DNA of 64,000 nt. Origin: Arthrobacter ipis. GTDB taxonomy: Bacteria; Actinomycetota; Actinomycetes; Actinomycetales; Micrococcaceae. Location of the stretch: NCBI RefSeq assembly GCF_014694315.1, contig NZ_JAAOXD010000003.1, positions 702,160 to 766,159 on the forward strand. The letters are read 5' to 3'. Position numbers and translations under genes: made by a program. Each line of letters begins with the position of its first letter. The first letter of the stretch is position 1. Shown piece after piece: positions 11,732-15,769 of the stretch. The notes under the pieces are model-generated. The model saw only the letters and a list, made by a program, of their open reading frames with translations. It searched no databases and was not told where the DNA came from.

Positions 11732-12142
11732 TTAGCTAACCTCGTTGATGCGGATCAGGTTCCCGGCCGGATCGCGGAAGGCGCAGTCGCGGACACCGTA
11801 CGGCTGTTGGGTGGGCTCCTGGACCACCTCGGCGCCGCTGGCCTGCACCTTCTCGAACGTGCCGTCCAGGTCCGGAGTGCCGAGCACGAGGCGGGCGTAG
11901 GTGCCCTTGGCCATCATTTCGGTGATGATGCGCCGCTCATCCTCGGTGATCCCCGGGTCGGCGGCCGGCGGTTCCAGGACTATGGACGTGCCGGGCTGAT
12001 CCGGAGGACCGATGGTGAGCCAGCGCATTCCGCCGTATCCCACATCGTTGCGGAGCTCGAACCCAAGGGTGTCGCGATAGAACGCCAGGGAGGCGTCGGC
12101 GTCGTTATGCGGAAGGAATGTCCAGTGAATGGTGAGGTTCAT
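11732..12142 (-). CDS. VOC/glyoxalase-fold protein
   Basis: 136-residue vicinal-oxygen-chelate protein with two beta-alpha-beta modules: the first around WTFLPHNDADASLAFYRDTL, the second ending CAFRDPAGNLIRINEV, the common C-terminal signature of this fold. Members include glyoxalases and bleomycin-type resistance proteins. It begins 9 nt after the AraC gene ends and is followed 35 nt later by the UvrA-like gene. TAGACT six bases before its ATG could also give it a private leaderless transcript. Confidence 0.85.
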   Translation of the reverse strand: MNLTIHWTFLPHNDADASLAFYRDTLGFELRNDVGYGGMRWLTIGPPDQPGTSIVLEPPAADPGITEDERRIITEMMAKGTYARLVLGTPDLDGTFEKVQASGAEVVQEPTQQPYGVRDCAFRDPAGNLIRINEVS

Positions 12143-12151
12143 GCCGCCAGT

Positions 12152-12595
12152 CTAGGTGCGGCCGGACGGGACGGCTTCTCGATTCCTGACCGGTCTGCTC
12201 ACTTGTTTCACCACGCATGACGGCATGCCTGCCGCCTCCCCCGCGGCCTGTGTCCGGTACGCGCTCGGCGGCATGCCGACCAGTTCGGTGAAGCGGCTGC
12301 TGAACGTCCCCAGCGAGGAACAGCCGACGGCGAAGCACACCTCCGTGACGCTGAGGTCGCCGCGCCGCAGCAGCGCCATCGCCCGCTCGATGCGCCGCGT
12401 CATCAAGTAGCTGTACGGGGGCTCGCCGTAGGCCTCCCGGAACTGCCGGCTGAGGTGCCCGGCCGACATGTTCACGCCACGGGCCAGCGCCTCGACGTCC
12501 AGCGGCTGGGCGTATTCCCTGTCGATGCGGTCACGGACGCGGCGCAGCAGCGCCAGATCGTCCAGGCGCTGTGCTGCGGCGGGTTTGCTGGTCAC
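12152..12595 (-). CDS. AraC-family regulator
   Basis: 147-residue protein consisting mainly of the AraC/XylS double helix-turn-helix domain (about residues 12-112): the first HTH around VEALARGVNMSAGHLSRQFR, the second around VTEVCFAVGCSSLGTFSSRF, ending GMPPSAYR. There is no separate ligand domain, so it may act with partner proteins or by abundance, as SoxS/MarA-type regulators do. GTG start at 12595. It heads a leftward unit with the VOC and UvrA-like genes and faces the polyketide synthase gene across 122 nt. Confidence 0.87.
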   Translation of the reverse strand: MTSKPAAAQRLDDLALLRRVRDRIDREYAQPLDVEALARGVNMSAGHLSRQFREAYGEPPYSYLMTRRIERAMALLRRGDLSVTEVCFAVGCSSLGTFSSRFTELVGMPPSAYRTQAAGEAAGMPSCVVKQVSRPVRNREAVPSGRT

Positions 12596-12717: not shown

Positions 12718-13899
12718 ATGACGGTCTATGTGAGAGCCCTCGAAACCGCAGTTCCGCCTACTCTGCTCATCCAGCACGAGGCCCGTGACGTGTTCGCAGC
12801 CCAGCCCGGCCTGACACGCCTTGGCTCACGGCTCGTGTCCACGTGCTTTGATTCCGCCGCCATCGACACCCGGTACACGGCGGTCCGCGAACTGACCCTG
12901 GACTCCACCGCCGAAAATCCCCAGTTTTTTGATCCGCAGACCGGCCTGCTGCGCAGCCCCAGCACCAAGGCACGCAACAACCTCTTCGCCGAGGAAGCAA
13001 CGAAGCTTTTCATCGATGCGGCGGACGCGGCCGTTGCCAAATGCGACGGTATTGATCCGCTGGACATCACCCACCTCATCACGGTCTCCTGCACCGGCTT
13101 TTTCAACCCCGGGCCGGATTACAAGATCGTCCGCGCCCTGGGCCTCAACCCAGCAGTGCAGCGCTACCACCTTGGCTTCATGGGCTGCTACGCAGCGTTT
13201 CCGGCGCTCCGTGCGGCCAAGTCATTCTGCGAGGCGGACCCGACGGCGGTTGTGCTCGTCGTGTGCGCCGAGCTCTGCTCCCTGCACGTCCGGACCTCCA
13301 ACGATCCCGACACGATCATGGGATCTGCATTGTTTGCGGATGGCGCGGCGGCCGCCGTCGTGACAGCCCGCGTGGATCTGGAGTCTCCGCCGCTGCTCCA
13401 ACTGGACCTCTTCGAGACGGTCCTGACCCCCGTGGGCGAGGACTCCATGGCCTGGAACATCGGCGATGAGGGCTTTGAGATGGTGCTCGGCAACTATGTG
13501 CCGCACATCATCGACGAGCACATCGTGGGCGCGCTCGAGCCGTTGCTGGCACGCGACCCCTCCCTGCGGGACCTCGCCTACCGCGACATTACCCACTGGG
13601 CCATCCACCCGGGCGGCCGCAGCATCCTGGACAAGGTCCAGTCCCGGCTGGACCTCACCGACGAGCAGCTGCGTCCGGCCCGCGAAACGCTGCGGAACTA
13701 CGGCAACATGAGCAGCGCCACGGTGCTTTTCGTCCTCAAGCACATTCTGGATCTTCCGTCGCGGGAGGGTGCAGAACGAATCTGTTCCATGGCCTTCGGC
13801 CCCGGGCTGACCGTGGAAACCGGGCTGTTCACCAAGGTCAAGCAGCCGGCCGGTGAGCTTGACGCCGTGGCCGGCGAGGCCGAGCCGTCGCTGGCCTGA
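12718..13899 (+). CDS. Type III polyketide synthase
   Basis: 393-residue chalcone-synthase-fold enzyme that condenses acyl-CoA with malonyl-CoA units and cyclises the product. The catalytic triad is visible: Cys157 in GFMGCYAAFPALR, His in WAIHPGGRSIL, and Asn in NYGNMSSATVLFVL. The length is normal. The frame is open further upstream, but the ATG at 12718 begins the conserved N-terminus and follows a plausible -10 by 7 nt. A methyltransferase and a flavin monooxygenase follow directly, an order like srsA-srsB-srsC of Streptomyces griseus, which makes methylated and hydroxylated alkylresorcinols. A related phenolic lipid or quinone is the likely product; this is inference. Confidence 0.93.
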   Translation: MTVYVRALETAVPPTLLIQHEARDVFAAQPGLTRLGSRLVSTCFDSAAIDTRYTAVRELTLDSTAENPQFFDPQTGLLRSPSTKARNNLFAEEATKLFIDAADAAVAKCDGIDPLDITHLITVSCTGFFNPGPDYKIVRALGLNPAVQRYHLGFMGCYAAFPALRAAKSFCEADPTAVVLVVCAELCSLHVRTSNDPDTIMGSALFADGAAAAVVTARVDLESPPLLQLDLFETVLTPVGEDSMAWNIGDEGFEMVLGNYVPHIIDEHIVGALEPLLARDPSLRDLAYRDITHWAIHPGGRSILDKVQSRLDLTDEQLRPARETLRNYGNMSSATVLFVLKHILDLPSREGAERICSMAFGPGLTVETGLFTKVKQPAGELDAVAGEAEPSLA

Positions 13900-13904
13900 C
13901 GGCC

Positions 13905-14639
13905 GTGAGGATCCCAGGAAGTGGCCCGGGCGTCCTCGGCCTACGGGACACGGACGCCGTCGAGGACATGGACCGGCCGGACTGCGATCCGGAACGGCTG
14001 CAGCGTACCTACGAGCAGTTCGCACTGGTGAACCGCGTGGTCTCCGGCTGGCGCCGGCTGTACCGCACCAGAGTCCGCGAGCAGCTGGCAGGCGTGGGCC
14101 CGGCAACGCTGCTGGACGTTGGCTGCGGCGGCGGCGACCTCGCCGTGATGCTCGCCCGCTGGGCGGCCCGGGACGGGATTCAGCTCCAGGTGACGGGGAT
14201 TGACCCGGACGAAAGGGCCTTTCATTTCGCGGCCAACCGCAAGCCCGTCCCCGGCGTCGAATTCCGCCAGGCAAGCAGCGGCGACCTGCTCGCCGAGGGC
14301 AGGTCCTACGACGTCGTGATCTCCAACCACGTGCTGCACCACCTGACCGCGCTGGAGCTGCAGTCATTCCTGGACGATTCCGCCGGGCTGGCCCGCCGCC
14401 TGGCCCTGCACAACGATCTCAGCCGGAGTGCAGCCGCCTATGCGCTGTTCAGTGCCGGTGCCCTGCCGCTCACCGGCTCCTACATCCGCGGCGACGGACT
14501 GACGTCGATCAGGCGCAGCTACACCGTGCCGGAGCTGGCCGCCGTGGTCCCAGCCGGCTGGACGGTGGAACCGCACTCCCCCTTCCACTGCCTGCTCACC
14601 TACCGGCGGCACGATACTTACCGGCAGCGCCAGGCATGA
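13905..14639 (+). CDS. Class I SAM-dependent methyltransferase
   Basis: 244-residue methyltransferase. Motif I is LLDVGCGGGDLAVML (about residues 69-83), the acidic loop is GIDPDERA, and motif IV is VISNHVLHHL. It starts with GTG five bases after the PKS stop and its own stop overlaps the next ATG as ATGA, so the three genes are co-translated. An internal ATG at 13968 is an alternative start. It probably methylates the polyketide on oxygen or carbon. Confidence 0.88.
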   Translation: MRIPGSGPGVLGLRDTDAVEDMDRPDCDPERLQRTYEQFALVNRVVSGWRRLYRTRVREQLAGVGPATLLDVGCGGGDLAVMLARWAARDGIQLQVTGIDPDERAFHFAANRKPVPGVEFRQASSGDLLAEGRSYDVVISNHVLHHLTALELQSFLDDSAGLARRLALHNDLSRSAAAYALFSAGALPLTGSYIRGDGLTSIRRSYTVPELAAVVPAGWTVEPHSPFHCLLTYRRHDTYRQRQA

Positions 14640-15769
14640 CCGATGTGCTGATCGTGGGCGGCGGTCCGGTTGGGCTCTTCCTGGGTTCACTGCTGCTGCA
14701 GCACGGCGTCGCGGTGCGGGTCCTGGAAAGGCGGACCGGACGGAATGCCCACACCAGGGCCATCGGGATCCATCCGCCGGCGCTCGCCGCCCTCGAACGC
14801 ATCGGCGTCGCCCAGGAGCTGATCGGCCGGGGCGTTCCAATCCGCCAGGGCTTCGCCGTGAGCAACGGCCGGAGGATTGCGCACATGCCGTTCGCCCCGG
14901 TCTCCGACCGTTACCCGTTCGTCCTCGCCGTGCCGCAGCCCGTGACGGAGGAGGTCCTGGAGCGGCGGCTCCGGGAGCTGGACGGCTGCGCGCTGCTCCG
15001 GGACACGCGCGTTACGGGAATGCACGACGACGGCGCCCGGGTCACGCTCAGCGTCACCACTGCCCGGGCAGTGTCCAACCACTCCGCCGCGTTCGCGGTG
15101 GGTGCCGACGGCGCCTACTCGGCAATGCGGTCCCTTCTGGGGGTCGCGGCGCCGGAGAAACAGTATCCGGACCACTACCTGATGGGCGACTATCCCGAGT
15201 CCAGCCCCTATGGCTGCGATGCTGCGCTGTTCCTGGAAAGCGACGGCATCGTCGAGTCCTTCCCGCTCCCCGGCGGCGTCCGCCGCTGGGTGGTACGGCT
15301 GGGCAGCCCGCCGGCCAGCCCGAACGCGGAGCAGTTGGCCGCGCTCGTTGCCCGCAGAACCGGTGTGGCGCTGGACCCCGGTGCGAACACGATGCTCAGC
15401 AGCTTCAGTGTCCGTTCGCGCTTGGCCGCGCGCATGGTGTCCGGCCGGACGGCGCTGATCGGGGATGCGGCGCACGAGATCAGCCCCATCGGCGGACAGG
15501 GAATGAACCTTGGCTGGCTGGATGCCGAAGCGCTGCTGCCGGGGATCCTCGCCATCGCGCGCGGTGAACCTTCCGCGGAAGCGCTGATGCGTTACGATGC
15601 GTCACGACGCCGGGCGGCAGCCGCGGCCAAACGCCAGGCCGAGGTGAACATGGCGCTTGGCCGGCCGCTTCCGGTAGGTCTGTTGCGGCCCCGGAATGCG
15701 GTGATTGTCCGTGCCGCCGCTATACCGGCCTTCAATGCCCTCGTGGCCCGGCGCTTTACCATGCAGTAG
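14636..15769 (+). CDS. FAD-dependent monooxygenase
   Basis: 377-residue flavoprotein of the PHBH/UbiH class. The FAD dinucleotide fold is VLIVGGGPVGLFLGSLLLQ (GxGxxG, residues 4-22). The middle DG motif is VGADGAYSAMRSLLG. The second FAD motif is TALIGDAAHEISPIGGQGMN, with the expected GD and GQGMN. It overlaps the methyltransferase gene by 4 nt. It probably hydroxylates the aromatic polyketide product, completing a PKS-methyltransferase-oxygenase set. Confidence 0.9.
   Translation: MTDVLIVGGGPVGLFLGSLLLQHGVAVRVLERRTGRNAHTRAIGIHPPALAALERIGVAQELIGRGVPIRQGFAVSNGRRIAHMPFAPVSDRYPFVLAVPQPVTEEVLERRLRELDGCALLRDTRVTGMHDDGARVTLSVTTARAVSNHSAAFAVGADGAYSAMRSLLGVAAPEKQYPDHYLMGDYPESSPYGCDAALFLESDGIVESFPLPGGVRRWVVRLGSPPASPNAEQLAALVARRTGVALDPGANTMLSSFSVRSRLAARMVSGRTALIGDAAHEISPIGGQGMNLGWLDAEALLPGILAIARGEPSAEALMRYDASRRRAAAAAKRQAEVNMALGRPLPVGLLRPRNAVIVRAAAIPAFNALVARRFTMQ

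Follow-up and report, generated by a model that had tools for sequence, protein, structure and literature searches.

A conserved operon of a type III polyketide synthase, a methyltransferase and a monooxygenase in Arthrobacter, likely devoted to a methylated and hydroxylated aromatic lipid

The srs operon is described as a stilbene synthase, an isoprenylcysteine carboxyl methyltransferase (ICMT; SrsB) and a monooxygenase (excerpt of PMC6669644). Related operons lead to polyketide quinones that are electron carriers in mycobacteria and are present in Streptomyces spores (excerpt of PMC9927152). The cyanobacterial hidABC genes and the planctomycete operons also encode a type III polyketide synthase (PKS), a methyltransferase and an oxidoreductase, hidC>hidA>hidB being one order on record (excerpt of PMC8086630). 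When expressed in C. glutamicum, the planctomycete PKSs yield pentadecyl- and heptadecylresorcinols, and the co-expression of mtr and fdo from G. maris adds one methyl, probably on carbon (excerpt of PMC10896814). Type III PKS clusters are common in genome surveys of the Micrococcaceae, where that of one Pseudarthrobacter is reported as having no similarity to known clusters (excerpts of PMC11078813 and PMC12025171). Among the papers listed in our literature searches, none names a product for the trio of Arthrobacter, Deinococcus or Micrococcaceae.

The window analysed here (the whole stretch of 64,000 nucleotides from Arthrobacter ipis) contains such a trio (Table 1). The stop codon of the PKS gene and the GTG of the methyltransferase gene are 5 nt apart, and the ATG of the monooxygenase gene overlaps the TGA of the methyltransferase gene (14637-14639) by 4 nt, in the form ATGA. 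The tight coupling of the three genes, noticed in the sequence-only reading, is thus borne out by the coordinates of the open reading frames and by the Pfam matches, and its view of a compact trio that is likely to produce a methylated, hydroxylated aromatic lipid is supported. The placement of the GTG start is uncertain, since the PRK06202 model match of the methyltransferase starts only at residue 13. The open reading frames and Pfam matches within the window revealed no acyl-ligase or ACP gene directly adjoining the trio, and the promoter and terminator scans found none of either (0.3 and 1.6 expected, respectively). A profile search with the C-terminal family of type III PKSs returned a single match in the genome.

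Table 1. Coordinates of the trio and of its main residues in the window. The Arthrobacter set has 110 rows, in which some species occur twice, from two collections.
Feature	Position	Strand	Remarks
Type III PKS, 393 aa	12718-13899	+	ATG start; Chal_sti_synt_N 1.6e-31, _C 2.1e-26 (Pfam)
Catalytic Cys157 codon	13186-13188	+	Conserved in 110/110 Arthrobacter-set rows
Cys187 codon	13276-13278	+	Aligned with the ELCS cysteine of Mtb Pks18, changed in chain 1tee; conserved in 110/110 rows
Trp246 codon	13453-13455	+	Aligned with Pks11 Trp230; conserved in 110/110 rows
His297 codon	13606-13608	+	Conserved in 110/110 Arthrobacter-set rows
Asn330 codon	13705-13707	+	Conserved in 110/110 Arthrobacter-set rows
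Class I SAM-dependent methyltransferase, 244 aa	13905-14639	+	GTG start; Methyltransf_25 7.5e-14 (Pfam); NCBIfam NF004851/PRK06202
Single-domain group A FAD aromatic monooxygenase, 377 aa	14636-15769	+	ATG start; FAD_binding_3 3.6e-54 (Pfam)
C-terminal FTM motif of the monooxygenase	15755-15763	+	FTM/FSM in 77/79 named-locus proteins (best 80 of 558 relatives); the 2 misses are incomplete frames

Rather than being a peculiarity of this strain, the trio belongs to the core traits of Arthrobacter. The PKS is present in 35 of the 36 genomes of the genus, the sole exception being a genome that is 68% complete, and it is split in two pieces in two of these 35 (G010 and G029). Its closest named relative belongs to Arthrobacter globiformis NBRC 12137 (94% identity). 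Gene neighbourhoods were compared in named loci corresponding to the best 80 of 558 relatives, a biased sample made up of close kin. The order PKS-methyltransferase-monooxygenase is kept in all 77 assessable loci of this sample, the remaining three ending too early downstream, and in 54 of the 78 loci that were measured the last two genes share 4 or 8 nt. Given this shared order and the frequent overlap, the trio is not a chance assembly. The surrounding genes vary from one locus to another, so that the trio itself appears as the conserved unit. Two neighbours were considered as pathway genes and rejected: an AraC-type regulator with a glyoxalase, directly upstream on the minus strand (window 11732-12595), is found in only 6 of these best 80 loci, and a SnoaL_2-like gene, present in the opposite orientation in 43 of the same 80 (for instance L015:11133-11543, minus strand), is absent from the window. 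For the genus, the trio is ordinary: a real, conserved operon of the type III PKS-methyltransferase-oxidoreductase kind. The novel compound suggested in the sequence-only reading is a possibility only, the cluster being a genus-wide trait that genome papers already record as an unassigned type III PKS cluster. Two particular cases were also observed. A genome of the genus with an intact PKS elsewhere (G022) has a stretch with decayed PKS matches, a monooxygenase fragment and a SnoaL fragment (L134:39-3400), which is probably a decayed second copy. An Arthrobacter-like trio with a 76% identical PKS (L054:3399-6380) was found on a contig binned as an Acidobacteria metagenome-assembled genome, as a result of either mis-binning or transfer.

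The methyltransferase scores 322.6 bits against NF004851/PRK06202 (cut-off 243), and this match, together with that to Methyltransf_25, agrees with its earlier description as a class I Rossmann enzyme. The suspicion that it may be unlike SrsB is also supported, SrsB belonging to the ICMT family according to the excerpt of PMC6669644, whereas Pfam and NCBIfam gave no ICMT match for the window methyltransferase. Its AlphaFold model has a pLDDT of 90.2, and the fold search returned generic class I matches (BpumL, CyaF, CouO, NovO and others) that do not discriminate between C- and O-methylation. The linkage of this family to the PKS was studied by searching 396 Actinomycetota genomes with both the PKS and NF004851/PRK06202. 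A PKS of 52% identity or more and a PRK06202 match of at least 241 bits occur in precisely the same nine genomes (eight of these matches above the cut-off, and that of G277 at 241.4). In all nine, the coordinates place the two genes side by side, and the next best PRK06202 score in any other of the 396 genomes is 76.5 bits. PRK06202 is also the best model for class I methyltransferases found elsewhere beside a type III PKS and a FAD enzyme: D. radiodurans (334 bits), Paludisphaera (232), Methylobacterium (143), Roseomonas (136), Sphingobium (133) and Psychrobacter (108). To judge from these profile scores, we infer that PRK06202 is a methyltransferase family associated with type III PKSs; at NCBI, NF004851/PRK06202 still bears the name 'hypothetical protein'.

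With a methyltransferase, an oxidoreductase and a type III PKS in one operon and in a known order, the locus has the hierridin-type layout, which is a closer architectural match than srsABC. The hidABC genes for hierridin B in picocyanobacteria are likewise three, for a type III PKS, a SAM methyltransferase and a FAD oxidoreductase. The enzymes were compared through the planctomycete Paludisphaera, which stands in here for HidABC. Its methyltransferase is also of class I, just below the PRK06202 cut-off, but the identities with the window proteins are modest (PKS 37%, methyltransferase 33%) and the planctomycete order is methyltransferase-monooxygenase-PKS. The oxidoreductases differ even more: phmmer found no match between the window monooxygenase and the Paludisphaera enzyme (standing in for HidB), nor any similarity to the enzymes of the alphaproteobacterial trios, so the oxidation step may differ. 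The Sphingobium trio (L118:2557-3989) is preceded by genes for a phosphopantetheine-binding protein and a beta-ketoacyl synthase, which suggests a dedicated starter supply there.

The window monooxygenase bears an FTM signature at its C-terminus and belongs to a PHBH/PnpA-like lineage different from the hierridin/planctomycete kind. The hallmarks of PHBH-like group A flavin aromatic hydroxylases are the GxGxxG, DG and GD motifs. In addition to the FAD_binding_3 fold, the window protein has GGGPVG at its N-terminus and invariant D158 G159 and G276 D277. Its model (pLDDT 92.4) is best matched by PnpA, the p-nitrophenol 4-monooxygenase (TM 0.89), PHBH and UbiH being good matches as well; such a phenol-hydroxylase-like predicted fold would fit the hydroxylation of a phenol ring. 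The FTM signature also occurs in Deinococcus (L113, L114, L158 and L159) and in Microbacterium-type sequences (L115 and L132). The FAD enzymes of the Paludisphaera, alphaproteobacterial, Psychrobacter and srs-type loci listed showed no such C-terminal motif, several sequences from the same taxonomic order ending at the locus edge.

The Deinococcus enzymes are much closer to those of the window than the Paludisphaera ones. The Deinococcus trios, including that of D. radiodurans, have the same gene order and the FTM C-terminus, with identities of 54-58% for the PKS, 49-53% for the methyltransferase and 43-50% for the monooxygenase. When a Microbacterium plasmid and trios from the same taxonomic order are considered along with Deinococcus, the gene order is again the same and the identities span 50-61% for the PKS and 43-55% for the methyltransferase; none of these trios carries a product annotation. 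In two of the four Deinococcus plasmids fetched, a glycosyltransferase gene follows the trio (L113:8974-10230 and L158:8070-9386), a hint that the product may be glycosylated there.

On balance, we lean towards a phenolic lipid of the membrane as the product of a translationally coupled pathway, in which a long-chain alkylresorcinol would be made, methylated and ring-hydroxylated, perhaps in that order. The PKS would extend a long fatty acyl starter with malonyl (perhaps methylmalonyl) units and then, through an aldol condensation, close it into a 5-alkylresorcinol. The PRK06202-family enzyme would place a methyl onto a ring carbon or oxygen, and the monooxygenase would hydroxylate the ring to give a hydroquinone-level or quinone product. 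The resulting lipid, which would be a core trait throughout Arthrobacter, may be redox-active or membrane-protecting. The PKS itself is a genuine type III enzyme, with the N- and C-terminal domains of chalcone/stilbene synthases and the Cys-His-Asn triad. The position of Cys187 presumably has a role in the acyl tunnel. A Trp at the position equivalent to Trp246 is conserved in alkylresorcinol formers and important in ArsB, according to the excerpts of PMC5916927 and PMC9927152. In our alignments this residue is Leu in Pks18 and Tyr in THNS. Nevertheless, a Trp at this position or nearly aligned with it also occurs in the DpgA-like sequences L120 and L122 and in Rhizobium (L160), so that Trp246 discriminates weakly; we considered it as proof of resorcinol formation and rejected it on account of its wide conservation. 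Trp246 supports, though not decisively, an aldol closure to a resorcinol. The pathway as a whole is also favoured by the intact triad and Cys187, by the kept order and the overlaps of the trio, by the linkage of the PRK06202 family to this PKS clade, by the planctomycete operons of this layout and by the phenol-hydroxylase-like predicted fold of the monooxygenase. Against it, plant 2-pyrone and stilbene synthases rank first among the PDB matches of the PKS by sequence, DpgA is its best NCBIfam match, no acyl-ligase or ACP gene directly adjoins the trio, and the monooxygenase lacks phmmer similarity to the Paludisphaera and alphaproteobacterial enzymes.

Two other products may be envisaged, both of which we regard as rather unlikely. 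One possibility is that the PKS makes long-chain alkylpyrones, as in Pks18 or Bacillus, in which case the methyltransferase would methylate the pyrone and the monooxygenase would oxidise the ring or the chain. Long-chain type III PKSs commonly yield both pyrones and resorcinols, and methylated pyrones are described from another pairing of a type III PKS with a methyltransferase (excerpt of PMC8730385). Yet the window PKS has Trp246 where Pks18 and its Nocardia relative (L121) have Leu, and the phenol-hydroxylase fold predicted for the adjoining monooxygenase would rather suggest a phenol substrate. The other possibility, to which we give about the same small credit, is that a short starter or malonyl-CoA alone leads to a small aromatic of the dihydroxyphenylacetate, acylphloroglucinol or naphthalene type, then methylated and oxidised to a pigment or quinone. 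DpgA is indeed the best NCBIfam match of the PKS, but its 156 bits are far below the cut-off of 425. The Trp of the DpgA-like sequences would be compatible with such a product, and the relatives of the monooxygenase include the polyketide hydroxylases OxyS, PgaE and MtmOIV. Against a small aromatic, no enoyl-CoA hydratase-type genes adjoin the trio, unlike the DpgA-like gene of L122, the layout of the trio matches that of alkylresorcinol operons, and the DpgA-like sequences and THNS fall outside the clade of the window PKS in a tree of 56 PKSs.

The same tree bears on the srs operons, Mtb Pks11 and ICMT-linked PKSs standing in for SrsA. The window PKS belongs to a clade of 22 sequences (support 100/99) from Arthrobacter, two families of the same taxonomic order (f19 and f9) and Deinococcus. 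Pks11 forms another clade (support 100/99) with nine PKSs from the same taxonomic order taken as srs-type, for two of which Pfam confirmed an adjoining ICMT. ICMT genes adjoin the PKSs of L128 and L130, both from this order and both grouping with Pks11, and the PKS of L124, also from this order, is close to Pks11 (326 bits). The window PKS is only ~27-33% identical to the PKSs from the same taxonomic order in the Pks11 clade, and forcing the two clades together was rejected (AU test, p-AU 0.000112). The assignment of the trio as srsABC-like in the sequence-only reading does not hold, since the methyltransferase is of class I instead of ICMT and the PKS lies outside the Pks11/ICMT-linked clade. 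A true srsABC/pkq operon, with an SrsA-type alkylresorcinol synthase and SrsB- and SrsC-type tailoring, is therefore very improbable, even though srsABC of S. griseus and pkqABC of Mycobacterium and Streptomyces share with the trio the PKS-methyltransferase-monooxygenase order, the Trp at the resorcinol position and, probably, a broadly similar chemistry leading from an alkylresorcinol to a methylated alkylquinone.

If the alkylresorcinol-based pathway is correct, it would provide a chemical hypothesis for the recurrent type III PKS cluster of the Micrococcaceae, which lacks a product, as well as for NF004851. Arthrobacter and Deinococcus belong to groups known to survive starvation and drying. 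A review that includes dormant Arthrobacter in its scope considers alkylhydroxybenzenes as regulators of dormancy (excerpt of PMC12844232). For the product of the trio, a respiratory or survival role may be conceived. A bolder and more doubtful proposal, which we make tentatively, is that the trio represents a third lineage, devoid of ICMT, among bacterial phenolic-lipid/quinone operons, a core trait of Arthrobacter shared with Microbacterium-type actinobacteria and Deinococcus, which would make an undescribed redox-active lipid serving as an alternative electron carrier or as a dormancy or desiccation lipid. As almost all members of the genus have the operon, and Deinococcus has it too, its product would, if the pathway is right, be a direct test of whether the survival of starvation and drying is supported by polyketide quinones or phenolic lipids.
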